DNA of 48,417 nt, from positions 1 through 48,417 of the forward strand of contig JAGBCY010000015.1 in the NCBI GenBank assembly GCA_017937765.1, given 5' to 3'. Positions within the stretch are counted from its first letter, which is position 1. Every line of letters begins with the position of its first letter. The position numbers were made by a program, and so were the translations under genes. Below the pieces are notes generated by a model. That model saw nothing but the letters and a program-made list of their open reading frames with translations, was not told where the DNA came from and made no database searches. This document shows, one piece after another, positions 2,862-25,966 of this stretch. The stretch is from Alistipes sp. (lineage in GTDB: Bacteria > Bacteroidota > Bacteroidia > Bacteroidales > Rikenellaceae).

Positions 2862-2863
2862 TT

Positions 2864-2990
2864 AATTTCTTTTGATAGGGGGGCTACTTCGACCTCTCAG
2901 TCAAAATGGCGAATGGGAAATACTCTCAGTATGTCCCATCCGCCATTTCTCGTGTCAAGATCAAATTAGACCACTTCTGACAAGAAATTA
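2864..2990 (+). repeat. Structured 3'-UTR element, copy A (after S46 peptidase)
   Basis: 127-nt imperfect palindrome beginning two bases after the TAA stop. The outer stem is AATTTCTT with AAGAAATT (2983-2990). The internal loop has GATA (2874-2877) opposite TCTGA. A long inner hairpin pairs 2904-2911 with 2941-2948, 2913-2918 with 2934-2939 and 2920-2924 with 2928-2932. It belongs to a five-copy family (also 7074, 11294, 16442 and reverse 25966) with conserved length and architecture but covarying stems. It may act as an mRNA 3'-end, processing or stability element. No poly-U follows it. Confidence 0.6.
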
Positions 2991-3067
2991 TGGTGTGCTG
3001 TTCCAAGTGTTATACCTTCAGTTATAATTATTACTAATTACTCACTCCTCACTACTAATTATTTTTG

Positions 3068-3075
3068 TATCTTTG
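3068..3075 (+). promoter_or_regulatory. Promoter -7 box of queA, nearly touching the start codon
   Basis: TATCTTTG lies only 7 bases before the ATG at 3083. Transcription from this box would start at about 3080-3083, so queA mRNA would be leaderless or carry a leader of a few bases at most. No good TTTG -33 box is visible. Confidence 0.5.
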
Positions 3076-3082
3076 CACCACT

Positions 3083-4297
3083 ATGGAACGACATATAGAC
3101 ATCAACGACTACAACTACGAGCTCCCCGATGAGCGCATTGCTAAGTTCCCGCTTGAGGAACGTACATCGTCGAAGCTCCTCGTCTACGACCGCGGCACCA
3201 TCACCGAGAGCCGCTTTGCATCCGTTGCGGAGTACCTCCCTGAGGGTGCTATGCTCGTATTCAACAATACGCGCGTCGTGCGTGCACGCGTCGTTATGCA
3301 CAAGGCTTCGGGTGCGCGTATCGAGGTTTTCTGTCTCGAGCCCCATCGCCCGGCCGACTACGAGCGTGCCTTTCAGCAGCGGGGCGAGAGCGAGTGGAGT
3401 TGCATCGTGGGCAATCTGAAGAAGTGGAAGGAGGGCGAGGTAGGCATCGACTTCGAGTACAAGGGCGAGCCCCACACGCTGCGTGCCGAGATCGTGGAGC
3501 GCGGCACGAGGGAGCATATCGTGCGTATGCGCTGGTCGGCAGACTGCACCTTCGGTGAACTCTTGGAGGAGCTCGGCCGTATCCCTATCCCACCATATCT
3601 TAATCGCGATAGCGAAGATATCGACAATACCCGCTATCAGACGGTTTATGCCCGCTATGAGGGCTCGGTGGCGGCACCCACAGCAGGTCTACACTTCACG
3701 CCCGAGCTTATCGCCTCGATGCGCGAGCGTGGCTTCGGTTTCGAGGAGGTGACGTTGCACGTCGGTGCAGGCACCTTCCTTCCCGTAAAGGATGAGGATG
3801 CTGCACAGCACCCGATGCACACGGAGCACTTCGTGGTGACGCTTAAGACGCTTGAGAGCCTTGCGGAGAACATCGCAAAGATTGTTGCCGTGGGCACCAC
3901 GTCGGTGCGCACGTTGGAGTCGCTCGCGGCTTTGGCGTGGCGCGTGAGAGAGCAAGGCGGTCCCTCGACGGAGCGTGTCATCGGTCAGTGGGAGCTCTAC
4001 GACATCCCTGCGGAGTTTGATGGCAAGGAGGCGTTGCAGACACTCATAGACTATATGCGAGCGAACGGTCTCGAGCAACTCAAGGCTGCAACGCAGATTA
4101 TGATCACGCCGCTTGGCTATCGCTTCCGTATTGTGAGGTATATAATCACCAACTTCCACCAGCCCAAGTCGACGCTGCTCCTTCTGGTTGGGGCCTACGT
4201 GGGCGACGATTGGCATAAGATTTACGACTATGCCCTCAGCCACGATTTCCGCTTCCTTAGCTACGGCGACTCCTCGCTCCTTAAGGTGGATTTATAA
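3083..4297 (+). CDS. queA: S-adenosylmethionine:tRNA ribosyltransferase-isomerase QueA
   Basis: 404-residue cytosolic enzyme that transfers and isomerises the ribosyl group of SAM onto 7-aminomethyl-7-deazaguanine in tRNA to give epoxyqueuosine. Family motifs: NYELPDERIAKFPLEER at the N-terminus, FNNTRVVRARV, YQTVYA followed by TAGLHFT, VGTTSVRTLES, and TNFHQPKSTLLLLV near the C-terminus. The ATG at 3083 is chosen because the upstream in-frame TTG (3065) would overlap the promoter box and add six unconserved residues. It stands alone between an upstream structured element and a downstream terminator. Confidence 0.95.
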   Translation: MERHIDINDYNYELPDERIAKFPLEERTSSKLLVYDRGTITESRFASVAEYLPEGAMLVFNNTRVVRARVVMHKASGARIEVFCLEPHRPADYERAFQQRGESEWSCIVGNLKKWKEGEVGIDFEYKGEPHTLRAEIVERGTREHIVRMRWSADCTFGELLEELGRIPIPPYLNRDSEDIDNTRYQTVYARYEGSVAAPTAGLHFTPELIASMRERGFGFEEVTLHVGAGTFLPVKDEDAAQHPMHTEHFVVTLKTLESLAENIAKIVAVGTTSVRTLESLAALAWRVREQGGPSTERVIGQWELYDIPAEFDGKEALQTLIDYMRANGLEQLKAATQIMITPLGYRFRIVRYIITNFHQPKSTLLLLVGAYVGDDWHKIYDYALSHDFRFLSYGDSSLLKVDL

Positions 4298-4347
4298 AGC
4301 TGAGGTTGTTCTATTTCGGAACAAGTGGCTATCCATAAAATAGAATA

Positions 4348-4384
4348 AAGCATCAATAAAATCGATTTATTGGTGCTTTTTTAT
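4348..4384 (+). terminator. Rho-independent terminator of queA
   Basis: AAGCATCAATAAA (4348-4360) pairs with TTTATTGGTGCTT (4366-4378) with one G-T pair and a 5-nt loop, followed by a T run to 4382. Confidence 0.8.
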
Positions 4385-4395
4385 TGTAAAAGTTG

Positions 4396-4403
4396 TATAT
4401 TTG
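4396..4403 (+). promoter_or_regulatory. Promoter -7 box of the nitronate monooxygenase-like gene
   Basis: TATATTTG matches the Bacteroidetes -7 consensus, 37 bases before the ATG at 4441. Its -33 region falls inside the queA terminator. Confidence 0.55.
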
Positions 4404-4440
4404 CGAACTATTTTTAAATTATTTGAAATATACAACAGCT

Positions 4441-5526
4441 ATGAAATCATTGAAAATCGGAGACCTTATCGCCAAGCTCCCCATCGTGCAGGGCGGTATG
4501 GGTGTCGGCATCTCGCTCTCGGGCCTTGCCTCGGCCGTAGCGAACGAGGGTGGTGTCGGTGTAATATCATCAGCCGGTCTGGGGCTGATATATAAGGATA
4601 AGGCCAAGAGCGTTGCCGAGGCGGCAATCGAGGGCCTTAAGGAGGAGTTGCGCAAGGCGCGCACAAAGACCGAGGGTATCATCGGTGTGAACGTGATGGT
4701 GGCCATGTCGAACTTCTCGGATATGGTACGTACCGCAGTGAAGGAGGGGGCCGATATCATCTTCTCGGGTGCTGGTCTCCCGCTCAACCTGCCGTCGTTC
4801 TTGACCGAGGGTGCTAAGACAAAGTTGGCTCCCATCGTGTCATCGGCACGTGCTGCGAAGCTCCTCTGCGAGAAGTGGTGGTCGGAGTATCGCTATGCTC
4901 CCGATGCCATCGTGGTTGAGGGCCCGAAGGCTGGTGGCCACCTCGGCTATAAGGCCGATCAGATATTCTCGGAGGAGTATCGTCTTGAGAAGATTTTGCC
5001 CGAGGTAGTGAGCGTCGTCGACGCATTCGCCACGGAGCACGACCGTGAGATCCCCGTTATCGCTGCGGGTGGTATCTATACGGGCGAGGATATTTATAAT
5101 ATTATGGAGCTTGGAGCCTCGGGCGTGCAGATGGGAACGCGCTTCGTGACTACCGAGGAGTGTGATGCCGACGTGCGCTTCAAGCAGGCATATATCGACG
5201 CACGCGAGGGGGATATCGAGATTATTCAGAGCCCCGTGGGTATGCCGGGGCGTGCGGTGCGCAGCTCGTTCTTGGAGAGCGTGAAAGAGGGGCTGACGAA
5301 GCCTAAGCAGTGTGCCTTCAATTGCATCCGTACGTGCGACGTGGTGCATAGCCCCTACTGTATTATGCTCGCGCTTTATAACGCCTTCAAGGGGCGTCTG
5401 GACCACGGCTATGCCTTCGCTGGCGCGAATGCGTGGCGTGCTGAGAAGATCGAGAGTGTGAAGCGTGTATTCGAGTCGCTTGTCGAGGAGTTTGCGGCAA
5501 AGAGAGGCTCTCAGCTCGGAAGGTAG
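4441..5526 (+). CDS. Nitronate monooxygenase / FabK-like NAD(P)H-dependent flavin oxidoreductase
   Basis: 361-residue TIM-barrel flavoprotein of the 2-nitropropane dioxygenase (NPD/FabK) family. Motifs: PIVQGGMGVGISLSGLASAV at the N-terminus, EGPKAGGHLG (FMN-phosphate/substrate loop), IAAGGIYTG and GASGVQMGTRFVTTEEC. Family members oxidise nitronates or act as enoyl-ACP reductases. The substrate cannot be decided from sequence. The C-terminus holds four clustered cysteines (CAFNCIRTCDVVHSPYC), as in the branch usually annotated nitronate monooxygenase. The start at 4441 is the first ATG giving the family N-terminus; upstream in-frame codons overlap the promoter. It is monocistronic. Confidence 0.85.
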   Translation: MKSLKIGDLIAKLPIVQGGMGVGISLSGLASAVANEGGVGVISSAGLGLIYKDKAKSVAEAAIEGLKEELRKARTKTEGIIGVNVMVAMSNFSDMVRTAVKEGADIIFSGAGLPLNLPSFLTEGAKTKLAPIVSSARAAKLLCEKWWSEYRYAPDAIVVEGPKAGGHLGYKADQIFSEEYRLEKILPEVVSVVDAFATEHDREIPVIAAGGIYTGEDIYNIMELGASGVQMGTRFVTTEECDADVRFKQAYIDAREGDIEIIQSPVGMPGRAVRSSFLESVKEGLTKPKQCAFNCIRTCDVVHSPYCIMLALYNAFKGRLDHGYAFAGANAWRAEKIESVKRVFESLVEEFAAKRGSQLGR

Positions 5527-5544
5527 TGGAGATTCCTTAATACG

Positions 5545-5574
5545 ATTATGGCTACCCATTCGGGTAGCCATAAT
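5545..5574. terminator. Bidirectional terminator between convergent genes
   Basis: Perfect 13-bp stem, ATTATGGCTACCC (5545-5557) with GGGTAGCCATAAT (5562-5574) and a 4-nt loop. It lies between the flavoenzyme gene (plus) and panB (minus). Confidence 0.8.
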
Positions 5575-5592
5575 TCGTTTATTCATAGGTTA

Positions 5593-6408
5593 TTAGTATT
5601 GCTCCTTCTCGTTGGGGAAGTCGCGGCTCTTAACGTCATCCACATAGTGACCTACGGCCTCCGAGATGATGGTTCCGAGGTCGGCATAACGACGTAAGAA
5701 TCGAGGCGAGAATGCCTGTGTGATGCCAAGCATATCGTGCGCAACGAGTACCTGACCATCGGTCGAACCGCCGGCACCAATGCCGATTGTGGGGATGTGC
5801 AACTCCTCCGAAACGCGCTTGCCAAGCTCCGCGGGAATCTTCTCCAGCACGAGTGCGAAGCAGCCGGCCTCCTCCAAAAGATGTGCATCGCGCACGAGCT
5901 TCTCGGCCTCGGCCTCATCCTTAGCGCGCACGTTGTAGGTGCCGAATTTATGTATCGACTGGGGCATAAGTCCGAGGTGGCCCATAACGGGAATGCCGGC
6001 CGAGAGGATACGGTTCACCGACTCCAATACCTCCTCGCCACCCTCGAGTTTAACAGCATCAGCCTCAGTCTCTTTCATAATGCGCACGGCCGAGTCGAGC
6101 GCGAGTTTTGAGTTGCCCTGATATGTTCCGAACGGGAGGTCGACGACCACCAGCGCACGTTTCGTTGCGCGAACTACCGACTTGGCGTGGTAAATCATCA
6201 TATCGAGGGTTATGGGTAGTGTGGTCTCGAAACCGGCCATCACATTGGCTGCCGAGTCGCCCACGAGTATCACATCGACACCCGCCTGATCGACGATCTT
6301 GGCCATAGAGTAATCATACGACGTGAGCATAGCGATCTTCTCGCCACGCTGCTTCATCTCCGTAAGACGCAGGGTGGTTACCGCCCTTACTGTACTTTCT
6401 ACTGACAT
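5593..6408 (-). CDS. panB: 3-methyl-2-oxobutanoate hydroxymethyltransferase PanB
   Basis: 271-residue cytosolic enzyme, the first committed step of pantothenate (CoA) synthesis. It transfers hydroxymethyl from methylene-THF to alpha-ketoisovalerate to form ketopantoate. Visible motifs: [17 protein letters not shown], metal ligands in [15 protein letters not shown] and KLEGG, the MGHLGLMPQ segment, catalytic Glu in VLEKIPAEL, and IPTIGIGAG. The length is typical. It has its own reverse promoter. No panC or panD lies next to it in this window. Confidence 0.95.
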
Positions 6409-6432
6409 ATGGTTTGTAGTTATATTTTAGTA

Positions 6433-6440
6433 CAAAGGTA
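6433..6440 (-). promoter_or_regulatory. Promoter -7 box of panB
   Basis: The reverse strand reads TACCTTTG, 24 bases upstream of the panB ATG, which leaves a leader of under 20 nt. Confidence 0.6.
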
Positions 6441-6489
6441 ACCAATAAAGTGAAATATGCAAATTTTTATACAAAAATACCTATATATA

Positions 6490-6520
6490 TTTGTATAACC
6501 GAAAATTATTCGTACCTTTG
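6490..6520 (+). promoter_or_regulatory. Consensus promoter of the rimP-nusA-infB operon
   Basis: TTTG (6490-6493), a spacer of exactly 19 nt, then TACCTTTG (6513-6520): a textbook Bacteroidetes housekeeping promoter. It gives an about 80-nt leader before rimP. Confidence 0.8.
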
Positions 6521-6540
6521 CGGTGTAATCGAGCGATGGT

Positions 6541-6561
6541 AAGGGGACGGGGAGTCCCCTT
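6541..6561 (+). promoter_or_regulatory. Hairpin in the rimP leader
   Basis: AAGGGGAC (6541-6548) pairs perfectly with GTCCCCTT (6554-6561) around a 5-nt loop, about 20 nt after the expected transcription start. There is no T run, so it is not an obvious terminator. It could stabilise the leader or serve in autoregulation; function unknown. Confidence 0.4.
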
Positions 6562-6607
6562 ATTTCGTAGATAGATGCTAAGGAAATAGAACAAATTATT
6601 GATAAAT

Positions 6608-7075
6608 ATGATTGATATTAAGCGTGTTACAGAGATTGCTGAGCGACACTTGGAGGGCAGCGATATGTTCGTCGTAGAGTGCAAGGCTACACCAATGGGC
6701 GAGATTGAGCTGCTCATTGATAGCGACACGGCGGTACGATTGGAGGACTGCGCGGCACTCAACCGTGCTATCGAGGCGGAGCTCGACCGCGAGGTTGAGG
6801 ACTACTCGCTGATGGTGGCATCGGCTGGTATCGGCTCGGAGCTCAAACTCTTGCGTCAGTATAGCAAGATTCTCGGCAGCTCTGTGGAGGTACTCTTAAA
6901 AGATGGCATCAAGATTCTTGCGAAGCTCGAGAAGGCCGATCAGGAGGGTATCGTGATATCGTACGAGGAGAAGCAGCTCATCGAGGGTAAGAAGCGCAAG
7001 CAGACCGTCGAGGTGACCAAAGAGTATAAGTGGGAGGAGATAAAGTACGTTAAAGAGTATCTCGACTTCAAGTAA
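6608..7075 (+). CDS. rimP: Ribosome maturation factor RimP
   Basis: 155-residue cytosolic factor for 30S subunit maturation. It has the two RimP domains: an N-terminal alpha/beta domain (VVECKATPMGEIELLIDS, then LEDCAALNRAIEAELDRE, YSLMVASAGI) and a C-terminal SH3-like barrel (KILGSSVEVLLKDGIK through EEIKYVKEYLDFK). The ATG at 6608 is preferred to an in-frame TTG nine bases earlier. It is first in the rimP-nusA-infB translation/transcription operon, a conserved order. A structured element begins within its stop codon. Confidence 0.92.
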   Translation: MIDIKRVTEIAERHLEGSDMFVVECKATPMGEIELLIDSDTAVRLEDCAALNRAIEAELDREVEDYSLMVASAGIGSELKLLRQYSKILGSSVEVLLKDGIKILAKLEKADQEGIVISYEEKQLIEGKKRKQTVEVTKEYKWEEIKYVKEYLDFK

Positions 7076-7200
7076 TTTGTTGTGATAATGGGTCATCTGC
7101 GGCGTCTGGCTTGTCGTTGAAATGCTCATTTACGTTAAGTAAACTCCGCTTTCAACGCCTGCGATCAGCCACCACATCTCACCCATTCTGACAACAAATT
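7074..7200 (+). repeat. Structured 3'-UTR element, copy B (rimP-nusA)
   Basis: 127-nt imperfect palindrome starting inside the rimP TAA. The outer stem is AATTTGTTGT (7074-7083) with ACAACAAATT (7191-7200). The internal loop has GATA (7084-7087) opposite TCTG, then ATGGGT with ACCCAT. The inner arms contain GTTG..CAAC and an apical hairpin TTTACGTTAAGTAAA. It lies inside an operon, so it is unlikely to be a plain terminator. It shares CATCTGCGGCG with copy D. Confidence 0.65.
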
Positions 7201-7283
7201 GGGTAGTGTTAAAGGTTTTTAAAACAAGATATAAACCCCACTATAAAACAGGCAAACAAAACAAAAACAAAATATAACGAAAA

Positions 7284-8513
7284 ATGAAGTACATTAATCT
7301 TATCAGCAACTTTGCTGAGTTCAAGGAGTTGAAGAGCATCGACAATGCTACGCTTATCGGCGTGCTGGAGGATGTGTTCCGCCACGCACTGCAGAAGCAG
7401 TTTGAGAGCGATGAGAACTTCGACGTGATCATCAACCCCGAGAAGGGCGATCTTGAGATTTGGCGTAACCGCATCGTAGTGGAGGACGACGCCGTGGAGA
7501 ACGAGAATACCGAGATTACGGTGTCGGAGGTTAAGGCTATCGATCCCTCGTATGAGGTGGGTGACGAGTATGCCGACCAGATTGATATGACAAAGTTCGG
7601 TCGTCGTGCCGTGTTGTCGTTGCGCCAGAACCTCGCATCGCGTATCCTCGATCTGGAGAAGGCCGCGCTCTTCGAGAAGTACTCGGAGAAGGTGGGCGAG
7701 ATTATCGCTGGCGAGGTTTACCAGGTGTGGAAGAAGGAGGTACTCGTGCGTGATGACGATGGCAACGACCTCGTATTGCCTAAGGGCGAGCAGATACCCA
7801 ACGACTTCTATCGTAAGGGCGATACCATCAAGGCTATCGTTAAGTCGGTGGAGATGAACAACAACCAGCCTCGTATCATCCTCTCGCGTACCGATAACCA
7901 GTTCCTCGAGCGATTGTTCGAGCAGGAGGTTCCCGAGATCTACGACGGCCTGATCACCATCAAGCGCATCGCCCGCATCCCTGGCGAGCGTGCTAAGGTG
8001 GCCGTTGAGTCGTACGACGACCGCATCGACCCCGTAGGTGCTTGCGTGGGTATGAAGGGTTCGCGTATCTACACCATCGTCAAGGAGTTGCGCAACGAGA
8101 ATATCGATGTTGTGAACTACACGGCAAACACGTCGCTTATGATTCAGCGTTCGTTGAACCCCGCAAAGATATCTACCATCACCATCGACGAGGAGCGTAA
8201 GACCGCATCGGTCTACCTCAAGCCCGAGGAGGTGTCGTTGGCTATCGGTAAGGGTGGTTTGAACATCCGTCTGTCGAAGATGCTCACGGGCTACGACATC
8301 GACTTGTACCGCGAGATCGAGGAGGAGGATGTTGCACTTGTGGAGTTCGCCGACGAGATCGACGGCTGGATCATCGAGGCCCTCAAGGCTGCGGGTTGCG
8401 ATACTGCGAAGAGCGTATTGGAGCTCACGGTTGAGGAGATCGCACAGCGTGCCGACCTCGAGATTGAGCAGGCCGAGAGCGTTGTAGCCATCCTCAAGGC
8501 CGAGTTCGAGTAG
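7284..8513 (+). CDS. nusA: Transcription termination/antitermination factor NusA
   Basis: 409-residue RNA-polymerase-associated factor that controls pausing, termination and rRNA antitermination. The N-terminal NusA domain (about 1-125, including TKFGRRAVLSLRQNLASRI) is followed by S1 (about 130-200, starting GEIIAGEVYQVWK) and two KH domains (GACVGMKGSRI and LAIGKGGLNIRLSKMLTGYDI). A short C-terminal acidic and helical segment (about 350-409) resembles the single helix-hairpin repeat of other NusA proteins. It lies between rimP and infB, as is usual. The leader has no Shine-Dalgarno. Confidence 0.96.
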   Translation: MKYINLISNFAEFKELKSIDNATLIGVLEDVFRHALQKQFESDENFDVIINPEKGDLEIWRNRIVVEDDAVENENTEITVSEVKAIDPSYEVGDEYADQIDMTKFGRRAVLSLRQNLASRILDLEKAALFEKYSEKVGEIIAGEVYQVWKKEVLVRDDDGNDLVLPKGEQIPNDFYRKGDTIKAIVKSVEMNNNQPRIILSRTDNQFLERLFEQEVPEIYDGLITIKRIARIPGERAKVAVESYDDRIDPVGACVGMKGSRIYTIVKELRNENIDVVNYTANTSLMIQRSLNPAKISTITIDEERKTASVYLKPEEVSLAIGKGGLNIRLSKMLTGYDIDLYREIEEEDVALVEFADEIDGWIIEALKAAGCDTAKSVLELTVEEIAQRADLEIEQAESVVAILKAEFE

Positions 8514-8553
8514 CAGACCACAGTTGATAACGATTAATGAAAGGAGATATTGA

Positions 8554-11295
8554 ATGGAGAATACGAAGAAGATAAGGCTTATCCAGGTTGCCAAGGAGTT
8601 TAAGGTGGGATTTAACACCCTCGCCGACTTTCTCCAGCGCAAGGGTTTGCAGAGCGACTGCTCGCCCTCGTCGCCCGTGACAGCCGAGGTATATGCCGCA
8701 TTAGAGAAGGAGTTTGGTCGCAATCGTCAGTCGGGTAACGAGCGTAATGCTGTGCGCGAGCGCATCCAGCAGAAGGGCTCGGTAAGCATCGCATCGCAGG
8801 GCCAGAAGGCTAAGGATGACGAGGAGGATGAGGTTATCGTCAAGAGCAACGTCATCAGCGTTAAGGATGAGGTTCGTGGCCCCAAGATCTTGGGTAAGAT
8901 CGACCTTAACCCCAAGCCCGCAGAGCCTAAGAAGGTGGAGCCGAAGAGGGAGGAGCCTAAGCCCGTCGAGGAGAAACCGGCAGAACCTAAGAGAGAGGAG
9001 CCGAAGCCTGTTGTGGAGAAGCCTGTTGAGGAGAAGCCCGTAGAGACCAAGAAGGTGGAGTCTCAGCCCGTTGAGGAGGCTCCCGCTACGGAGGAGCCCA
9101 AGCGCGATTCGGTATATCGTCCCGAGATCGCGCAGCTCGGCGGTCCTAAGATTCTGGGTACGATGGATGTATCGAATATGGTCCCCGGCGGTAAGCACAA
9201 GCGTAAGCGTCTGGACAAGGAGAAGGTAAACGTAGCGAAGGAGGGTAAGAATGCCGGCAAGCAGGAGAAGGGCGCAGCTAAGGGTGGCAATAAGCCCCAG
9301 CAGCCCCAGCAGCCTCAGGGTGGCCAGCAGCAGCCTCAGTCGAAGAAGAATAAGAAGCAGCAGAAGCAGCAACCCAAGCCCATCGTACGCCCCGAGGTGT
9401 CGGACGAGGAGGTATCAAAGCAGATTAAGGATACGTTGGCTCGTCTTACGGCTAAGGGTACGAAGTCTAAGGGTGCGAAGTATCGTAAGGAGAAGCGCGA
9501 TGAGGTTCGTGAGCGAATGAACGAGGAGATCGAGCGCGAGGAGATGGAGCGCAGCGTGCTCAAGGTTACGGAGTTCGTGACCGTGAGCGAGCTGGCTACG
9601 ATGATGAACGTATCGCCTATGGAGGTCATCTCGGCGTGTATGAACCTCGGTCTTATAGTGTCGATTAACCAGCGTCTCGATGCCGAGGCTTTGGTTGTTG
9701 TTGCCGAGGAGTTCGGCTTTACTGTCGAGTTCGTGTCGGTGGAGATTCAGGAGGCTATCGAGAGCGATGTTGATAGCGACGAGGATCTCGTTCCGCGTCC
9801 CCCTATCGTTACGGTTATGGGACACGTTGACCACGGTAAGACGTCGCTTTTGGATAACATCCGTAAGACCAACGTTACGGCTGGTGAGGCAGGTGGTATC
9901 ACACAGCACATCGGTGCTTACTCTGTGGAGCTCAACGGCCAAAAGATCACGTTCCTCGATACGCCGGGTCACGAGGCATTTACCGCTATGCGTGCGCGTG
10001 GTGCTAAGATGACCGACGTTGCCATCATCATCGTTGCTGCCGATGACTCGGTGATGCCCCAGACCGTTGAGGCTATCAACCACGCCTCGGCTGCAGGTGT
10101 GCCTATGGTGTTCGCTATCAATAAGATGGATAAGCCACAGGCCAATGCCGACCATATCCGCGAGCAGCTCTCGCAGATGAACTACCTCGTTGAGGATTGG
10201 GGCGGTAAGTACCAGTGCCAGGAGGTGTCGGCAAAGAAGGGTATGAACCTCGATAAGCTCTTGGAGAAGGTGCTCCTCGAGGCCGAGATGCTCGAGCTTA
10301 AGGCTAACCCCAACCGCAAGGCGTCGGGTGCCGTTATCGAGTCGATGTTGGATAAGGGTCGTGGTTATGTCGCTACGATTATGGTCCAGAACGGTACGCT
10401 CCGTGTGGGTGATGTTCTGCTCTCGGGTACCTACACTGGCCGCGTGAAGGCTATGTTCGACGAGAATGGCCGCAAGGTTACCGAGGCAGGTCCTTCGACT
10501 CCTGTTCAGGTGCTCGGTCTTAACGGTGCACCTCAGGCCGGCGATACCTTCAACGTTATGGAGGACGACCGCTCGGCACGTGAGATTGCCAATAAGCGTG
10601 AGCAGTTGCAGCGTATGCAGGGTATTATGACCCAGAAGCACGTTACGCTCGACGAGATTGGTCGTCGTATCGCTATCGGCTCGTTCAAGGAGCTCAACAT
10701 CATCGTTAAGGGTGATGTTGACGGCTCGGTTGAGGCTATGACTGGCTCGCTCATCAAGCTCTCGAAGGAGAGCGTTCAGGTGAACGTCATCCACTCGGCC
10801 GTAGGTCAGATCTCGGAGTCGGATGTATTGCTCGCCACTGCCTCGAATGCCATCATCGTGGGCTTCCAGGTGCGTCCTTCGGCTGCAGCACGTAAGGCTG
10901 CCGAGAAGGAGCAGATCGATATCCGTCTCTACTCGATCATCTACGATGCCATTAACGAGATTAAGGATGCTATCGAGGGTATGTTGGAGCCCGTTATGAA
11001 GGAGGAGATCGTATGCTCTACGGAGGTTCTCGAGACCTTCAAGATCTCGAAGGTGGGTACCGTGGCAGGTTGCGTTGTCCGCGAGGGTAAGATGCAGCGT
11101 AACACGCCTATCCGCGTCATCCGTGACGGTATCGTTATCTATACCGGTAAGCTCGGCTCGTTGCGTCGTTTCAAGGACGACGTGAAGGAGGTAACCGTAG
11201 GTCAGGATTGCGGTCTTAACATCGAGTCGTACAACGATATTAAGATTGGCGATATCATCGAGGGTTACGAGCAGGTAGAGGTAAAGCGCAAGTAA
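8554..11295 (+). CDS. infB: Translation initiation factor IF-2
   Basis: 913-residue GTPase that places initiator tRNA on the 30S subunit and drives subunit joining. An IF2_N-like module (1-55, [20 protein letters not shown]) is followed by a long charged linker rich in E-P-K repeats (about 110-190) and a Q/P/K stretch (about 245-290). A second IF2_N follows, then the G domain: GHVDHGKT (423-430), DTPGHEAF and NKMDK. The beta-barrel, IF2 domain 3 and C-terminal fMet-tRNA-binding barrel complete it. A clear Shine-Dalgarno (AAAGGAG, 8539-8545) precedes the ATG, unusual among its neighbours. It is last in the operon. Confidence 0.97.
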
Positions 11296-11422
11296 TTTTT
11301 CCGTGATAAAGGGGCGTCTACTGCCACAAACGAAATATGCCGTCAATGGGCTGTGCGCCCAAGTACAGCCCATCGACGTCAATTTCGCCGAGTGTCGGAT
11401 TTAACCCTTTCTAACGAAAATT
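11294..11422 (+). repeat. Structured 3'-UTR element, copy C (after infB)
   Basis: 129-nt imperfect palindrome starting inside the infB TAA. AATTTTTCCGT pairs imperfectly with ACGAAAATT (11414-11422). GATA lies opposite TCTA, then AAAGGG with CCCTTT. The inner arms run GTCAATGGGCTGT through ACAGCCCATCGAC, with apical GCGCCCAAGT. The layout matches copies A, B, D and E, with independent stem sequences. Confidence 0.6.
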
Positions 11423-11506
11423 ATATCGCCAAAGAGGCACCCAAGATACAAGACACAAACACAAATAGATTTAACAGTTTCTAAAAACCTAAATAAACTT
11501 AAAGCA

Positions 11507-12823
11507 ATGAACAACATCAAGTTTACAACTGCTGCCGAAGCAGTTAAGTGCATTAAGTCGGGTGATCATATTCACCTTAGCTCAGTGGCATCTGCCCCCC
11601 AGTGCCTCATCAAGGCTATGTGCGACCGTGGTCGTAATGGCGAGTTTAAGGATGTTCACATCCACCACCTCCACACCGAGGGTCCTGCTCCCTATGCAGA
11701 TCCCGAGTTTGAGGGCGTATTCCAGCTCGACTCATTCTTCGTAGGTGGCAACGTACGTAAGGTTACGCAGAGCGGCTTCGCAGACTATATTCCTATCTTC
11801 TTGAGCGAGACTCAGAAGCTCTATCGTTCGGGTGCTGTTCCCTGTAACGTGGCTATGATCCAGGTATCTCGCCCCGATAAGCACGGCTACGTGTCGCTCG
11901 GTACTTCGGTAGATGCTACGTTGGCAGCTGTTGAGACTGCCGACTACGTTATCGCCGTAGTAAATAAGTATGTTCCCCGTTCGTTCGGTGACGCTATGAT
12001 CCACTCGTCGAAGATTAACTTCTTCGTTGAGGACGACCAGCCCCTCGAGGAGGCTCACTTCACCGCTCCTAACGAGGTGGAGACCAAGATCGGTAACCTC
12101 TGTGCAGGCCTTATCGAGGATGGTGCTACACTCCAGATGGGTATCGGTGCTATCCCTAACGCTGTGCTTGCTCAGCTCGGTGGCCACAAGAACCTCGGTG
12201 TTCACACTGAGATGTTCGCCGATGGCGTACTTCCTCTCGTTGAGAAGGGTGTTATCAACGGCGCGTTGAAGAACATCGACAAGGGTAAGATGGTATCTAC
12301 ATTCTTGATGGGTTCGCAGAAGGTTTACGACTTTATCGACGACAACCCCGGCGTATTGATGATGGACGTAGGCTATACGAACGATCCCTTCGTTATCGCT
12401 AAGAATGATAAGGTTACAGCTATCAACTCAGCACTTCAGGTTGACCTCACAGGTCAGGTATGTGCCGACTCTCTCGGCCGTAAGTTCTACTCGGGCGTTG
12501 GTGGCCAGATCGACTTCATCTATGGTGCATCGCTCTCGAAGGGTGGTAAGGCTATCATCGCTATGCCTTCGATTACGAACAAGGGCGTATCGAAGATTTC
12601 GGACGTTCTCACCGAGGGTGCCGGTGTTGTTACCACACGTAACCACATCCACTGGTTCGTAACCGAGAATGGTGCTGTTGATCTCTATGGTAAGAGCCTT
12701 CAGGAGCGCGCACGCCTCATCATCTCTGTTGCTCACCCCTCAGCGCAGGAGGCTTTGGACGAGGCAGCATTTAACCGCTACGGTTCGCACCACCACTATA
12801 TTAAGGGTTATATGTCGAAGTAA
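11507..12823 (+). CDS. Acetyl-CoA hydrolase/transferase family protein (4-hydroxybutyrate/butyryl-CoA:acetate CoA-transferase-like)
   Basis: 438-residue cytosolic CoA transferase of the acetyl-CoA hydrolase/transferase (Cat1/AbfT) family, which moves CoA between carboxylic acids through a glutamyl-CoA thioester. Motifs: LQMGIGAIPNAV, GVHTEMFADGV with the probable catalytic Glu, and GGQIDFIYGASLSKGGKAII, which is close to 4-hydroxybutyrate and butyryl-CoA:acetate transferases. A role in fermentative acid production from amino acids or succinate is inferred; the substrate pair is unresolved. No TAnnTTTG box is visible just upstream, so it may be read from the infB operon. Its last codons and terminator are duplicated at 13057-13127. 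Confidence 0.85.
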   Translation: MNNIKFTTAAEAVKCIKSGDHIHLSSVASAPQCLIKAMCDRGRNGEFKDVHIHHLHTEGPAPYADPEFEGVFQLDSFFVGGNVRKVTQSGFADYIPIFLSETQKLYRSGAVPCNVAMIQVSRPDKHGYVSLGTSVDATLAAVETADYVIAVVNKYVPRSFGDAMIHSSKINFFVEDDQPLEEAHFTAPNEVETKIGNLCAGLIEDGATLQMGIGAIPNAVLAQLGGHKNLGVHTEMFADGVLPLVEKGVINGALKNIDKGKMVSTFLMGSQKVYDFIDDNPGVLMMDVGYTNDPFVIAKNDKVTAINSALQVDLTGQVCADSLGRKFYSGVGGQIDFIYGASLSKGGKAIIAMPSITNKGVSKISDVLTEGAGVVTTRNHIHWFVTENGAVDLYGKSLQERARLIISVAHPSAQEALDEAAFNRYGSHHHYIKGYMSK

Positions 12824-12877
12824 TCGGGCTTCCGAGACTTATCGTATATGTAAAGCCTTCCCGCTTGGGAGGGCTTT
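12807..12877 (+). repeat. 71-bp direct repeat, copy 1 (gene 3' end plus terminator)
   Basis: 69 of 71 bases are identical to 13057-13127. The unit holds the last four codons, the stop codon and the terminator hairpin of the CoA-transferase gene. The only differences are the two bases at 12831-12832. Confidence 0.85.
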
Positions 12878-12884
12878 CTTTTTA
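12852..12884 (+). terminator. Terminator of the CoA-transferase gene
   Basis: AAAGCCTTCCC with GGGAGGGCTTT around a 4-nt loop (12852-12877), followed by a pyrimidine-rich tail (TCTTTTTA). It is duplicated at 13102-13130. Confidence 0.75.
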
Positions 12885-13056
12885 CCCCTTAATATAGTGG
12901 TGGTGCTTGGGGCACCACCGTTCATATTTACAATCCCTCTAAATCCCCCTTTAAGTTCACTTCGTTCCTTTTCGTTGCTTCGGCTCGGCAGAACAAGTTT
13001 ACTTGTTCTGCTCTCGCCTTAACCGCAACGCTGAGAAAGGTGGACTTGGTTAATGA
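12878..13056. mobile_element. 179-nt structured insert between the 71-bp repeats (MITE/REP-like)
   Basis: No gene. 12886-12906 is a perfect 21-bp inverted copy of the gene end at 12787-12807. Hairpin GGTGGTGC..GCACCACC (12899-12919) overlaps it. A nested module is bounded by TCCCCCTTT (12944-12952) and AAAGGTGGA (13036-13044, 8 of 9 complementary), and it contains a perfect 11-bp hairpin, GCAGAACAAGT with ACTTGTTCTGC (12988-13011). The layout resembles a non-autonomous palindromic element or an integration scar. No transposase is nearby. Confidence 0.45.
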
Positions 13057-13127
13057 GTTATATGTCGAAGTAATCGGGCTCTCGAGACTTATCGTATATG
13101 TAAAGCCTTCCCGCTTGGGAGGGCTTT
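13057..13127 (+). repeat. 71-bp direct repeat, copy 2, with second terminator
   Basis: Offset exactly 250 bases from copy 1. It includes the orphan codons (ending at the TAA at 13071) and the terminator stem (13102-13127) with a longer T run to 13131. Confidence 0.85.
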
Positions 13128-13196
13128 TTTTAATGGTCGTGTTATCCCGAGGTGGGTGGTTTAGGAAACTTCGGATGTTATAGGTGTTTAGTGAAG

Positions 13197-13227
13197 TTTG
13201 TCATTTGTGAATTATTTTGTAACTTTG
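13197..13227 (+). promoter_or_regulatory. Consensus promoter of the DUF4834-like gene
   Basis: TTTG (13197-13200), a 19-nt spacer and TAACTTTG (13220-13227) match the full Bacteroidetes consensus. It may also drive mlaE-mlaF. Confidence 0.75.
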
Positions 13228-13285
13228 TCGCGTACTATGTATATATAGGAGTACAACATTTGTGTTATACGAAAAAAGAGTTTAA

Positions 13286-13744
13286 ATGGCATACCTAAAG
13301 ATTATTTTTTACGGCCTACTGGCAGCTATCGAACGTCACCCGATATTCTTTCTGGCGATATTCCTATTGGCCGTTTTTGCCCCGTTTGTGTTCAAATGGG
13401 TATTGTGGGTGATTCTCGCCCTATTGGCAATTGCGCTTATCGGCATCGGCGTGGCTATGTATCGCTTCCGCAAGATGCAGCGCGAGATGAACAACCAATT
13501 CAACGGGGCTGGCGGTGCGCACTTCGGCAATGCTGGCGGCTTCAACGGCTTCACAGGCTTTAGCAATATGAGCGGTATGTCGCTCGAGGAGCTCGTGCGA
13601 CAGATGCAGGCGCAGGCCGATGCCCAGCAGCAGCGCAACGCCCAGCGTCAGCAGGGCACGCAGGGCGCGCAACGTAGGCCCGAGGAGAAGAAGATCGAGA
13701 ACGATAAGTCGGACGAGTATGTCGACTTTGAGGAGGTAAAGTAG
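13286..13744 (+). CDS. Small membrane protein (DUF4834-like)
   Basis: 152-residue protein of unknown function. Two hydrophobic segments span about residues 4-28 and 34-52, separated by a short turn, and are followed by a charged segment (YRFRKMQREMNNQF). A Gly/Asn/Phe-rich stretch comes next (about 70-95), then a helix with a Q/A/R-rich tract (about 105-135) and an acidic end (SDEYVDFEEVK). This layout fits the small Bacteroidetes DUF4834 membrane family, recognised from general pattern only. It sits 48 bases before mlaE and could be cotranscribed with it. Confidence 0.7.
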   Translation: MAYLKIIFYGLLAAIERHPIFFLAIFLLAVFAPFVFKWVLWVILALLAIALIGIGVAMYRFRKMQREMNNQFNGAGGAHFGNAGGFNGFTGFSNMSGMSLEELVRQMQAQADAQQQRNAQRQQGTQGAQRRPEEKKIENDKSDEYVDFEEVK

Positions 13745-13792
13745 CGATGTCGTAGTGTTGTTGAGGATATCGCAGAATATAAAGAGAGGAGT

Positions 13793-14536: not shown

Positions 14537-15288
14537 TACGAGCAGACCATATATCAAAGACATTCGATGGCCGCGAGGTGCTCAAGGATATCACCGTTGA
14601 GTTCGATACCGGCAAGACAAACCTTATCATCGGTCGCAGTGGTTCGGGTAAGACCGTGCTGCTAAAGTCGCTCGTGGGCCTGCACGATGTGGATAAGGGG
14701 CTTATCTTTTTCGATGATACGTGCTACACGAAGCTCGGCTTCAAGGAGCGTAAGGAGATCCGTAAGGATATAGGTATGATCTTTCAGGGTGGTGCTCTGC
14801 TGGACTCTTCGACCGTGAGGGAGAACGTGCGCTTGCCGCTCGACCTCTTTACGACGATGACAGAGGGCGAGAAGCGCGATAGGGTGAACTTCTGCTTGGA
14901 GCGTGTACGCCTTCAGGGAGCTGATCACCTCTACCCCTCGGAGCTTAGTGGCGGTATGGTTAAGCGTGTGGCCATCGCGCGCGCTATCGTGCTCAACCCC
15001 CGTTATCTCTTCTGCGACGAGCCCAACTCGGGCCTCGACCCGCAGACATCGGTTGTTATCGATAACCTCATCCACGACATTACAAAGGAGTTTAACATCA
15101 CGACTATTATCAATACCCACGATATGAACTCGGTGATGGAGATTGGCGAGAAAATTGTCTACATCCACGAAGGCCACAAGTGGTGGGAAGGTACGAAGGA
15201 CGATATCCTGCAGTCGGATAACCCCGAGCTCAACGACTTTGTCTTTGCCTCGGCTATGGCAAAGCGCGCCAAAAGTGTTGCGCGATAG
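14533..15288 (+). CDS. mlaF: MlaF-family ABC transporter ATP-binding protein
   Basis: 251-residue cytosolic ATPase that partners MlaE. Walker A GRSGSGKT (34-41), Q-loop IFQGGALLDSSTVREN, signature LSGGMVKRVAIARA, Walker B LFCDEPNSGLDP and H-loop NTHDMNSV are all present, so it should be active. It overlaps mlaE by four bases. The usual third partner, an MCE-domain MlaD protein, is not next to it: the following gene is gapA with its own promoter. Confidence 0.93.
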   Translation: MIRADHISKTFDGREVLKDITVEFDTGKTNLIIGRSGSGKTVLLKSLVGLHDVDKGLIFFDDTCYTKLGFKERKEIRKDIGMIFQGGALLDSSTVRENVRLPLDLFTTMTEGEKRDRVNFCLERVRLQGADHLYPSELSGGMVKRVAIARAIVLNPRYLFCDEPNSGLDPQTSVVIDNLIHDITKEFNITTIINTHDMNSVMEIGEKIVYIHEGHKWWEGTKDDILQSDNPELNDFVFASAMAKRAKSVAR

Positions 15289-15362
15289 ACCGAGAGGAGA
15301 GGATAGTAACGAATAAATATTAAAAAAATTTAATTTTTCTTGTTTTTTATGACAGAATAGTG

Positions 15363-15370
15363 TAAATTTG
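15363..15370 (+). promoter_or_regulatory. Promoter -7 box of gapA
   Basis: TAAATTTG, with CTTG at 15339-15342 (20-nt spacer) as a near -33 box. The ATG is 63 bases further on. Confidence 0.55.
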
Positions 15371-15423
15371 TGGTCTTGAAAACAGGATTTATTGAGCGAA
15401 AGTATTAACTAACAACTAAATAA

Positions 15424-16441
<1,018 letters not shown>

Positions 16442-16443
<2 letters not shown>

Positions 16444-16571
16444 TTTTCGATTATAAGGCCGCATCTGCGGCGCATCCCTAAAAGACAACTACCTCGGGCT
16501 GTACGTCAAAGTACTATCCCGAGGTAGTTGCTTTTGTGATGCACCACATCTACAACCTTCTAATCAAAAAT
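16442..16571 (+). repeat. Structured 3'-UTR element, copy D (after gapA)
   Basis: 130-nt imperfect palindrome starting inside the gapA TAA. ATTTTCGATT pairs with AATCAAAAAT (16561-16570 region), and AAGG with CCTT. ATA lies opposite TCT. CATCTGCGGCG and CCACATCT are shared with copy B. A perfect inner stem, CAACTACCTCGGG with CCCGAGGTAGTTG, carries the apical motif TGTACGTCAAAGTACTA. The terminator at 16624 lies beyond it. Confidence 0.65.
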
Positions 16572-16623
16572 CATTTTCCGATTTATAGATGGTATCTACT
16601 GCCTATTCATCCTCTACCAACTA

Positions 16624-16661
16624 AATGAAATGCTACACCCTGCTGGGTGTAGCATTTCATT
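16624..16661. terminator. Bidirectional terminator between gapA and the endonuclease
   Basis: Perfect 17-bp stem, AATGAAATGCTACACCC (16624-16640) with its complement (16645-16661), and a TGCT loop. It lies between convergent genes. Confidence 0.85.
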
Positions 16662-16685
16662 GTTTCCTTCCTTTTGCCAATCTCA

Positions 16686-17456
16686 CTAATAGGCCTGGAA
16701 TGTGTCCCACGAGGAGTTTTTCTCGGCTGTGGCCTCCACACCGTCGGGGAGGTTAGGGAAGAAGTCGAAGCCCGTCCACGCCTCCACCTGGTCGACCGAC
16801 ACGGTGTAGTTGTAGAACTTGTCGTTATACTCCCTGTTCTCGTACCAGAAGCCAACGGTCGAGGCCGAAGTCACCACGCCCGAGCTATTGGTCGTAACCT
16901 TCAGTACCAACTTATAGAAGTAGTTGGGGATGGGTACGCTCCGCGTGTCGCTCGCAGGCTTGATGTAGGAGATGCTCTTATTCTCGCCCACCTTACTAAA
17001 TGCGACGCCCGTCACGACATAGACCTTCTCACTCTGGCCTATGGACTGTATCGCCTGCTCGAGGCTGTTCCATATACCATCGTTGAAGCGCGTCTGCCAC
17101 TGCGGTACCGAGTTTGTGTAGTAGAATGTCTGGAGCTGCATACCCCTGATGCCATTACGCGAGGCATTGGGGATGAGGTGCCCTCGGCTGTACGTGCCAC
17201 CCGAGTATGAGCTATCGAGATTCACTTGATACTCCTCGTCAATCTCGGGGTTATAGTCCCAACTGTTTGGTCGCGACAGCGAGCCCATATGCTCCGCCTC
17301 GAGCGGGTATGCCACCCACATCGTGGTGTATGTCGACTTGTCGTAGAAGATGGTGTAGTTACGCTCGCCACCATACTCGACCTTGCACTCTATGGCATTG
17401 GGATAGGCGTTGTCGCTACGCTGTGCGGGGAGTTCGAGCCACGACTCCGAGGCCAC
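16686..17456 (-). CDS. DNA/RNA non-specific endonuclease domain (in frame behind a TGA)
   Basis: About 256 residues matching the beta-beta-alpha-metal NucA/EndA family. YSRGHLIPNASR carries the catalytic His and replaces the common DRGH by SRGH. It is followed by the metal-ligand Asn-containing FYYTNSVPQ region and WNSLEQAI; VYVVTGVAF and PNYFYKLVL complete the fold. The only candidate start is a GTG at 17456 inside a Gly/Thr/Pro linker. That open frame continues upstream without another stop to the TGA at 17526-17528 that ends the preceding lipoprotein. The nuclease therefore looks like the C-terminal domain of that protein, split by one nonsense codon. If translated separately it would lack a signal peptide. 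Confidence 0.75.
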   Translation of the reverse strand: MASESWLELPAQRSDNAYPNAIECKVEYGGERNYTIFYDKSTYTTMWVAYPLEAEHMGSLSRPNSWDYNPEIDEEYQVNLDSSYSGGTYSRGHLIPNASRNGIRGMQLQTFYYTNSVPQWQTRFNDGIWNSLEQAIQSIGQSEKVYVVTGVAFSKVGENKSISYIKPASDTRSVPIPNYFYKLVLKVTTNSSGVVTSASTVGFWYENREYNDKFYNYTVSVDQVEAWTGFDFFPNLPDGVEATAEKNSSWDTFQAY

Positions 17457-17525
17457 GCCACCTGTTCCCGGGGTAGGGTCTGGCGTGGGAGGCGTAACCT
17501 CGCCTCCCGTGTCACCACCCCCAGT

Positions 17526-22685: not shown

Positions 22686-22738
22686 TTGAGTGGATTAGTG
22701 TTGTAAACCCTTGCTGTTACAGAACCCTCTTATGAGGG

Positions 22739-22746: not shown

Positions 22747-22822
22747 GTAACTTTATCTTATAAATGCTCCATTTGTGTCAATATTCTCTACGATTATTTC
22801 CTCCTTTTTTATACCTTTTTCG

Positions 22823-22830
22823 TATCTTTG
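22823..22830 (+). promoter_or_regulatory. Promoter -7 box of the phosphodiesterase gene
   Basis: TATCTTTG. Transcription would start near 22836, exactly where the first tandem leader repeat begins, and give a leader of about 180 nt. Confidence 0.6.
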
Positions 22831-22832
22831 CC

Positions 22833-22983
22833 ATCGGACCGATGGCCCTATTACAGCGAGGTGGTACAGCAATGACGGTCCAAAGTGGTGATAGATAGGT
22901 GCTTTTGTAGGGCGTTTGTTTAATCGGAGCGATGGCCCTATTACAGCGAGGTGGTAAATATTGACAGCCTTAAGTAGTGATAG
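22833..22983 (+). repeat. Tandem leader repeats (62 and 61 nt) before the phosphodiesterase gene
   Basis: Copy 1 is 22833-22894 and copy 2 is 22923-22983, offset 90. The first 34 bases (ATCGGA..GTGGTA) differ at one position only. The 3' parts share TGAC, RGYC and AAGTRGTGATAG. In copy 1, GGACCG (22836-22841) can pair with CGGTCC (22876-22881); in copy 2 that pairing is weak. The position from the predicted transcription start through the leader suggests a tandem RNA element or a doubled operator. I do not recognise a known riboswitch. Confidence 0.6.
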
Positions 22984-23014
22984 GAATGACCTTTACACGG
23001 ATAATTTTAGACGT

Positions 23015-23503: not shown

Positions 23504-23537
23504 TAATTAGTAGTAAGTAATTAGTAATATGTTGATT

Positions 23538-24509: not shown

Positions 24510-24571
24510 TTCATTCGCAGTGCTATGGCTTAAAGGAGTTCTGATTGTTCACCCATCGAAACCCATAAACA

Positions 24572-24611
24572 AAACGGGGATGACAAAAATATTGATTTGT
24601 CATCTCCGTTT
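24572..24611. terminator. Terminator between the esterase and the outer-membrane protein gene
   Basis: AAACGGGGATGACAAA (24572-24587) with TTTGTCATCTCCGTTT (24596-24611): 15 of 16 pairs and an 8-nt loop, lying between convergent genes. Confidence 0.75.
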
Positions 24612-24643
24612 CGTTAGGACCCTAAATTTTGGTCAAACGTCTG

Positions 24644-25399
24644 TTAAAATGTTATACCTACTTTTATATATAATGAGTTAGAGAAGGTCTTGTATTCATC
24701 GTAATCAATTTCCTTACAAATTTCGTAATCATCATCCCACTCATTGTAGTCCCAGTAATAATCGGTGTCGATATCTTGTTGTACATAACGCTGATGTTGC
24801 AATCCTACTGTAAAGCTCAATAATTTATATTCGATACCAACACCCCAATCACAGTAAAAACCACCTTTAATCTTGTGTGAGTATATATTTCCCACTCGGT
24901 AATCATCTTCATAGTAAGTATCGTCGTATATAAATTTACCATTAGAGTTAGCTATCGCGGTTCCACCAAAACTTAGAGTTGTAAATGGCCTCAATTTATC
25001 GGTGATAGGTAAAAATCCCTTGATATTTACAAAAATGGGAATTGCAATCATATCCCAAGTTGTTGTTTTACTCCTGAATGAGTAAATATCTTCTGCTCCA
25101 AATATCTCACCCGTATAATATTGGAGCCCTAAACCTGCACCTACGTAGAGGTAGTTAGATAGCGACACGCCGTGTACGGTCTCAATCAGAGGGCGTGACA
25201 TTGATGAATAAACTGCAAAATTATAATATTCTTCATTGTCTACTTGTGCGGGTATATGCAACTTATTTGAGAATGCACCTCCTATGTTAATTTCTCCACG
25301 ATACTTGATGTCCCACTTAAACGGCTGTGGCTTGAACTGTGCGAATGAAATACCAATTGAGCAACTAATTGCACACAAAATTAGTAATGCTTTCTTCAT
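24644..25399 (-). CDS. Outer-membrane beta-barrel protein (AT-rich)
   Basis: 251 residues with a signal peptide (MKKALLILCAISCSIGISFA). Alternating aromatic beta strands follow (YLYVGAGLGLQYYTGE, WGVGIEYKLLSFTVGLQHQRY) and a terminal Phe (YIKVGITF), typical of small porin-like barrels recognised by the BAM complex. The function is unknown. Base composition is strikingly AT-rich with many Asp/Tyr codons in A/T-ending form, unlike the GC-rich neighbours, which suggests acquisition by transfer or relaxed selection. It is preceded by a 440-nt AT-rich region without a convincing gene. Confidence 0.8.
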   Translation of the reverse strand: MKKALLILCAISCSIGISFAQFKPQPFKWDIKYRGEINIGGAFSNKLHIPAQVDNEEYYNFAVYSSMSRPLIETVHGVSLSNYLYVGAGLGLQYYTGEIFGAEDIYSFRSKTTTWDMIAIPIFVNIKGFLPITDKLRPFTTLSFGGTAIANSNGKFIYDDTYYEDDYRVGNIYSHKIKGGFYCDWGVGIEYKLLSFTVGLQHQRYVQQDIDTDYYWDYNEWDDDYEICKEIDYDEYKTFSNSLYIKVGITF

Positions 25400-25704
25400 A
25401 ATAATTTATGTTTGTGGTACCGTATCATCTCCTATGCGGTGGGTTTGTATATACAAGAAAGTGTGGAGATGATTCTCGTTTATCTAATCGAAGGTTGTGG
25501 AAAGACCTGAACTGAAATAAACGATACAATGCCCCACACTTGGATAGTATGAGGTATGTACGCACAAGAGATTTGCGTAGCCACATAGCTATACAAGAAA
25601 TGAGTGCTGCTCGATTATCCTTCAGTTCTGAAAACTTCCACATTTTCGATTAAGGACTTGCGAAAAACACTTTCAATATGTCTGCTATCTATCCAATAGC
25701 ACTA
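25400..25704 (-). ncRNA. Possible structured RNA or leader upstream of the barrel gene
   Basis: No recognised gene. A reverse promoter box ends at 25705, so a transcript could cross this region. Complementary pairs: AAGTGTGG (25459-25466) with CCACACTT (25534-25541), GAACTGAA (25509-25516) with TTCAGTTC (25621-25628), and TAATCGA (25485-25491) with TCGATTA (25611-25617). TATACAAGAAA occurs at 25450 and again at 25590. A 72-codon open frame (25425-25643, reverse, MWKFSELKD...) has no signal or domain I know. Either a small RNA, a long leader or a short gene is possible. Confidence 0.3.
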
Positions 25705-25712
25705 CAAAATTA
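25705..25712 (-). promoter_or_regulatory. Reverse promoter box upstream of 25400-25704
   Basis: The reverse strand reads TAATTTTG, with TTG about 20 nt upstream. It would drive the putative RNA and/or the outer-membrane protein gene 300 bases downstream. Confidence 0.4.
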
Positions 25713-25839
25713 AAAATTATTTCTGAAATGAACAACACTCTTCGGGGACATTGCAATTATAAATAGTGCAACGCTCAGTGAAAATCCCGACGATGGGCTA
25801 TATTTTAGCGTGAGGTGATTTTGTGTCATTGCAGAACGG

Positions 25840-25966
25840 AATTTGTCGTCAGAGTGGCGTAGCAGTGGCGATGACATGAAAAAGCCCTGGATGGATAGTA
25901 CTTGGCGTACATTCCATTCAGGGCTTTGATTGAAGCGTCGCTGATGCGTCGCTATCACGACAAATT
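25840..25966 (-). repeat. Structured 3'-UTR element, copy E (after guaA, reverse)
   Basis: 127-nt imperfect palindrome directly after the guaA TAA. AATTTGTCGT pairs with ACGACAAATT at the far end. GATA lies opposite TCTG. The inner stem AAAGCCCTG with CAGGGCTTT bears the apical motif TGTACGCCAAGTACTAT, nearly the same as copy D. Five T residues follow the inner stem on the reverse strand, so this copy could also terminate transcription in the middle of the element. Confidence 0.65.
25876..25927 (-). terminator. guaA: Terminator-like inner hairpin after guaA
   Basis: The inner stem of copy E, AAAGCCCTG (25881-25889) with CAGGGCTTT (25919-25927), is extended by ATGGA/TCCAT and GTAC/GTAC. It is followed on the reverse strand by TTTTT (25880-25876). 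Confidence 0.65.

Follow-up and report, generated by a model that had tools for sequence, protein, structure and literature searches.

A dispersed family of covarying hairpins at stop codons in the gut genus Alistipes

Bacterial hairpins of the selenocysteine insertion sequence (SECIS) type lie immediately behind a stop codon and act on the ribosome. Other systems comparable with the element considered here are dispersed repeats. Repetitive extragenic palindromes (REPs) are units of 20-40 bp with a GTAG or CGTC tag (PMC3733652); in E. coli, 446 of 4,072 REPs lie within 15 nt of a stop codon, and for those near the stop codon ribosome stalling and reduced translation have been reported (PMC12306157, citing Liang, Rudd and Deutscher 2015). 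Enterobacterial repetitive intergenic consensus (ERIC) sequences, 127 bp long (PMC2759123), change mRNA decay at the 3' ends of Yersinia genes, and QMITE2 of Coxiella is found mainly in 3' untranslated regions (UTRs); the phrase 'stop codon' is absent from the review reporting these cases (PMC10969869). Here we analyze five hairpins, e1 to e5, in contig JAGBCY010000015.1 of an Alistipes genome (the window, meaning the whole stretch of 48,417 nucleotides), and find that they are members of a large dispersed family of about 127 nt in this gut genus. The position of the hairpin at or after the stop codon, in the sense of the gene, suggests an undescribed signal where translation ends. Our best reading, by analogy, is that the element would work like the E. 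coli REPs near stop codons, yet it is not a REP. The members in the window, all of the form hereafter called type I, are as follows:

2864..2989, + strand: type-I hairpin e1, two bases behind TAA 2859-2861 of a peptidase S46 gene
7074..7200, + strand: type-I hairpin e2, overlapping TAA 7073-7075 of a rimP-like gene, upstream of nusA
11294..11422, + strand: type-I hairpin e3, overlapping TAA 11293-11295 of infB (IF-2)
16442..16571, + strand: type-I hairpin e4, overlapping TAA 16441-16443 of the GAPDH gene
25840..25966, - strand: type-I hairpin e5, directly behind TAA 25967-25969 of the GMP synthase gene (guaA)

As with the REPs and bacterial interspersed mosaic elements of Enterobacteria, the Alistipes copies are dispersed palindromes behind genes. 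Unlike REPs, the unit measures about 127 nt instead of 20-40 bp, no GTAG tag was noticed in it by eye, no associated Y1 (RAYT) transposase was found in the element-rich genomes searched, and the copies combine a fixed register at the stop codon with almost exclusive sense orientation and covarying stems. The element shares its intergenic location and uneven copy number with ERIC, which is also of similar size, and with other miniature inverted-repeat transposable elements (MITEs) such as Correia and QMITE. It departs from them in that its register and orientation follow the stop codon, and neither a target duplication nor, among the Y1 transposase and reverse transcriptase families searched, a parent insertion sequence was found.

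The first-pass annotation of the window had proposed five structured elements in 3' position, and these are confirmed with coordinates within 1-2 nt; the overlap with the stop codon (T|AA), seen in three of the five, had been missed. Their folds are more stable than those of dinucleotide shuffles (z from -4.9 to -9.4), none of 200 shuffles being as good for any element. The covariance model R1, derived from alignment A2 of 15 copies, finds e1 to e5 when run without filters on both strands of the window, as it must by construction since the model includes these five and ten other copies; the next match has an E value of 2.4.

The search for further copies proposed in that annotation returned many, in the same genome as well as in congeners. 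Alone, e1 has 28 blastn matches in its own genome (G000), partly on both strands of one place. R1 produces 142 matches there at E <= 1 on both strands, the best 150 of 358 candidates having been scored, and these correspond to about 88 distinct places, some partial and the count probably a lower bound, once opposite-strand doubles, a 45-nt fragment (L072) and a weak place (C5:89356) are dropped. Across the genus, type-I matches at E <= 1e-10 were found in 18 of 31 genomes, the own one among them, with 1 to 110 in each (two strands of a place counted apart, 112 candidates scored per genome), so that copy number is patchy, from 0 to 110. Genome G130 holds many similar copies, up to 99% alike. 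A family-wide search with stricter filters found matches in 18 of 120 genomes, again including the own one, and in 3 of 22 genera; an order-wide search, a weak one with 11 candidates scored per genome, found them in the own genome only, of 295. All 80 records with the apex pattern among the matches listed are titled Alistipes sp. or Rikenellaceae bacterium. R1 was run on 80 of at least 116 apex-pattern stretches and yielded, after removal of opposite-strand doubles, 129 copies in named loci; together with the 88 of the own genome they form a set of 217 copies, oriented by their end motifs with five flipped.

The elements had been thought to belong to no known family, and indeed they have no Rfam match in the window at gathering score; eight type-I and type-II loci gave nothing at E <= 1 except one antisense microRNA hit (E 0.37), and membership of any Rfam 15 family was not found. 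Nor was such a family found described in the open-licence literature on repeats, hairpins, 3' ends and elements in stop codons of Alistipes, Rikenellaceae or Bacteroidetes.

In the consensus plan, the outer stem AATTTNTTG(T)/...CAANAAATT leads to two single mismatches within the motif GATA/TCTRA, inward of which come another stem of roughly six pairs, a looser middle, an inner stem whose sequence varies and the apex TAC-N5-GTA. The plan outlined earlier, with its AATTT.../...AAATT outer stem, GATA/TCTRA motif, variable paired inner stem and TAC-loop-GTA apex, is borne out; in most copies the motif amounts to a single G.G and a single T.C mismatch, separated and flanked by A-T pairs. The apex, as TAC-N4-7-GTA, is present in 207 of the 217 copies, and the ends are mostly AATTT/AAATT, that is, inverted repeats. 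Among the 194 copies whose ends can pair, pairing at two outer-stem positions is seen in only 36% and 34%, against 76-98% for the other sixteen. The forms of the motif (n = 179) are GATA/TCTG in 76 copies, GAAA/TTTG in 23, GATA/TCTC in 22, GATA/TCTA in 17, TTTA/TAAA in 13 and TATA/TCTA in 10.

Covariation of the stems, claimed in the first-pass annotation, holds in A2, a sequence alignment from which the structure itself was nevertheless derived: 22 of 34 pairs are changed on both sides, versus a mean of 12.5 in shuffles; 90.0% of the cells are paired, versus 73.6% shuffled and at most 47.6% with the structure slid; and the covariation score is 0.424, versus 0.142 and at most 0.101, respectively. 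An alignment-free test swapped arms among 205 copies (the 217 minus 10 whose length falls outside 118-136 nt and 2 lacking an apex): in 201 the inner arm matches its own partner more closely than it does 30 others on average, and in 185 the outer arm does. Moreover, among 92 copies with one form of apical hairpin, the five pairs beneath it occur in 35 arm combinations, of which 22, found in 70 copies, are fully paired. Covariation beyond phylogeny is judged by these controls alone, namely the shuffles, the slid structures and the arm swap. Taken overall, the earlier interpretation is supported, and none of the contrary outcomes that it had named (no hits in related genomes, a match to an existing family, no covariation beyond phylogeny) occurred.

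At orthologous stops whole stem blocks differ, by eye, on both arms together; the covariation is therefore not simple site-by-site compensation, and replacement by other copies probably contributes. The same block differences would suit an explanation without any selection on RNA, in which the complementarity of the arms is kept by template switching in a palindrome and by exchange between copies. Such switching would remove the two mismatches, each of which stays unpaired in about two thirds of the 194 copies, and it predicts neither a sense bias nor a register at the stop codon; we consider it improbable.

The register at the stop codon, the main feature of the family and one that the first-pass annotation had missed, was determined for all 217 copies with open reading frames (ORFs) defined without annotation, the minimum length being 60 codons in general and 25 where a contig edge intervened. 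In 93 copies the stop lies at -1, its last two letters being the first two of the element (87 TAA, 5 TAG, 1 TGA), and in 49 it lies on the same strand at 0 or from -2 to -16. A further 34 are tandem followers behind another copy (46 when followers from other classes are added), and such copies share AATT at the junction. The first in-frame stop lies inside the element in 19, seven of them in ORFs of more than 250 codons, and can be supplied by the conserved TGATAA; the remainder comprises 21 'other' copies and one at an edge. The reverse arrangement at exactly -1 occurs once, and within 16 nt of a stop 12 reverse cases face 142 in sense; the reverse case at e2 involves an ORF antisense to nusA, which shows that not all of the 12 are genes. 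Comparable placement is seen in other genomes: all four copies fetched from G136, a 3.8-Mb congener with 11 matches, have the stop at -1 to -3, and so at -1 or -2 do 6 of 16 from G130, the other ten following, by eye, the end of another element.

Like SECIS-type hairpins, the element is found immediately behind the stop codon; unlike these, its stops are mostly UAA and the frame behind the stop is open for 4 to 121 codons with no common length (93 copies), so that no read-through is indicated and a read-through signal was rejected as a candidate function. As a separate observation, the loci L062, L063, L064, L017, L166, L170 and L174 have long ORFs with the first in-frame stop inside the element, which may supply the last residues and the stop of these proteins.

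Could the register derive from the mode of insertion? A selfish miniature mobile DNA element, inserted one way by a recombinase or transposase at T|AR(TT), would have a position that is uninformative on host function. In favor of this are the patchy copy number, the near-identical copies of G130, presence and absence at orthologous stops (see below) and the tandem copies with AATT common to the junction. Two of the five copies at -1 of a TAG stop also have the left end AGTTT together with the right end AAACT, as if the end matched the target, these being inverted rather than direct end copies. As to the hallmarks of MITEs, the ends are inverted repeats and AATT could be target or end. Yet a DNA target alone leaves unexplained the preference for stop codons over other TAATT sites: in 56 own-genome loci without overlaps, used also for the counts of gene ends, codons and neighbors below, 14 of 264 free TAATT sites are at a stop codon, and 39 of 54 element-bearing gene ends read TAATT. 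TAA is the stop in 50 of these 54 versus 67 of 138 other gene ends, a control from loci chosen for holding elements and thus not a random sample.

Nor did a mover emerge from the genomes. Y1 transposase is absent from G000 and from ten of ten element-rich genomes, its sole match among 25 genomes being in G097, which has no type-I matches, and reverse transcriptase is lacking in four of ten element-rich genomes; both were rejected as movers because neither tracks the copies. A phage or plasmid origin was likewise rejected, with no viral contig for three apex patterns (two of type I, one of type II), and e1 matched no plasmid or phage. At orthologous stops the spacers are too diverged for a clean empty site or a target duplication to be discerned. 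On this balance we regard the selfish element as rather doubtful.

Turnover at orthologous stops was read by eye. Behind the GAPDH gene (e4), a type-I copy is present in G000, G003, G025, G033 and locus L160, a decayed one in G011 and the apex of a second hairpin type in G008, with no copy in G001, G002, G004, G006, G007 and G030. The infB stop (e3) carries the second apex in G001 and G030, a relict in G025 and neither type in nine other genomes; the rimP stop (e2) has copies in G011 and G033 and none in G004, G025 and G030; the e1 stop has one in the named locus L149. This sister or type-II hairpin has the same apex as type I, in the pattern TCACATAC-N-GTATGMTSCGG, which occurs in 18 of the 31 genus genomes, not in the own one, and gives 0 control matches. 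Of 31 sites checked, 22 have it beginning 48-66 nt past the stop of an ORF on the same strand (seven are further away and two have no stop), and on its other side a converging stop lies at 49-58 in five of 31. The genes of e3 and e4 bear both hairpin types, in different species. Of note, at the type-II sites L261-L290, AAATCC-TCACATAC-loop-GTATGCTGCGG follows the stop codon at a fixed distance, and G001 contains 39 type-II sites with no type-I match.

A further reading, which we hold as a tentative possibility, is stop-codon homing, with spread steered in sense to the stop codons of translated genes and two apex-sharing hairpin types competing for sites. The 3' end of the element might pair with the stop codon, or the event might occur at the level of RNA or translation; a copy would then land harmlessly and become part of the termination site at once.

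Element genes scanned for their protein family in the own genome include AspRS, ProRS, IF-3, EF-P, ribosomal proteins L9, L17 and S1, a DksA-like protein, HPF, DnaA, DnaN, MreB, PurA, EF-G2, tryptophanase and serine hydroxymethyltransferase; the scan covered 28 of 62 listed genes, two giving no family, and about half were picked as apparent housekeeping genes, so that it is no test of enrichment. The frequency of C-ending codons is 0.656 in 54 element genes versus 0.589 in 136 others (p 0.004). Downstream neighbors lean towards convergence (34 vs 17, compared with 64 vs 62 for other genes; p 0.07), and the next ORF is 155-1015 nt away in the 51 element genes measured.

This spacing and lean, with strong hairpins at gene ends, would fit intrinsic transcription terminators that multiply. 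Against that stands the lack of a general U-tract in the flanks of 88 copies inspected by eye, so that the combination of hairpin and U-tract was not found; moreover, none of the 11 terminator-like sites in 2500-17500 (11.4 expected) coincides with e1 to e4, one of them (16624-16661) lying 53 nt behind e4, and e2 sits between rimP and nusA, inside what reads like a single rimP-nusA-infB operon. Terminators thus appear unlikely. Integron-like attC sites left by cassette recombination would equally account for long imperfect hairpins of variable sequence, in gene orientation behind stops. The window copies follow housekeeping genes such as infB, guaA and the GAPDH gene, no cassette arrays were noticed (no integrase search was made), and attC core motifs were not noticed in the conserved ends; we deem this explanation very improbable.

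Given the near-palindromic form of the element, its near-exclusive sense orientation implies that the transcript strand is read, or that insertion is tied to it. Sense orientation, stop register and the kept mismatches together lead us to favor action on the mRNA at termination, and we judge the chances about even that the dispersed copies act in cis on the sense mRNA, either where translation terminates or at the end of the message. The hairpin would form the start of the 3' UTR, its base in the commonest arrangement including the last two letters of the stop codon. A terminating ribosome would hold the outer stem of 9-10 bp open; once ribosomes are gone or scarce, this stem would close at a fixed distance from the stop codon, so that a factor, possibly an RNase, an RNA-binding protein or the ribosome itself, would meet the two conserved mismatches and the apex TAC-GYCAA-GTA. 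Recognition of the loop by a protein or RNA, as had been proposed earlier, would fit this scheme. The outcome could be tuned termination, ribosome recycling or stability of the mRNA end, as for E. coli REPs reported within 15 nt of the stop; their reported ribosome stalling is the nearest precedent for action at termination (PMC12306157). What the analysis establishes is the family with its predicted structure, covariation and conserved mismatches, its stop-codon register and sense orientation, and its patchy copy number and turnover; the action on RNA, its partner, the sign of the effect and the mode of spread are what we infer here.

Several points weigh against such a role. Orthologous genes are often without the element, the e1 stop having it in 0 of 9 fetched genomes, and 13 of 31 genomes of the genus have no type-I match at E <= 1e-10, which means that nothing essential depends on it. 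Forty of the 217 copies are 'other' or have their first stop inside the element, 11 of them showing the apparent end of another element just upstream, and the exact stop overlap could reflect how copies insert rather than what they do. The mismatches are not universal, since the GAAA/TTTG and TTTA/TAAA forms (23 and 13 of 179) close one or both, and with stem blocks exchanged as a whole part of the covariation is replacement. Furthermore, the codon-bias signal is small, with control genes taken from the same loci, and the lean to converging neighbors would also suit a 3'-end or terminator role.

Other features of the window can be recorded here. Downstream of many type-I copies, for example at 2990-3050, is a second shared segment, roughly GGTGTGCTATCCC...CGTTATATC...TAATTATTACTAATTACTCACT, placed behind a copy or behind the last copy of an array. 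About 70 nt with the 3' end and terminator-like hairpin of an acetyl-CoA hydrolase gene occur twice, 250 nt apart (12808-12877 and 13058-13127), and the segment between contains another repeat (12921-13050, 85% to G029:C44); the region 12808-13127 has the appearance of an insertion by which the end of a gene was duplicated. A cobalamin riboswitch and two tRNA genes account for 35488-35683 and 44157-44366, both on the - strand.

Dispersed repeats of bacteria have mostly been read as intergenic clutter, and the present family, whose register and orientation follow the stop codon, accompanies many housekeeping genes in a common gut genus, its stems covarying and its mismatches conserved. Should it act on termination, control of 3' ends would have a genome-wide layer outside Enterobacteria as well. 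If instead it is aimed at stop codons, it would embody a stop-codon targeting rule that is, to our knowledge, known in no bacterial mobile element. Either way, Alistipes offers hundreds of natural variants and element-free sister species for tests.

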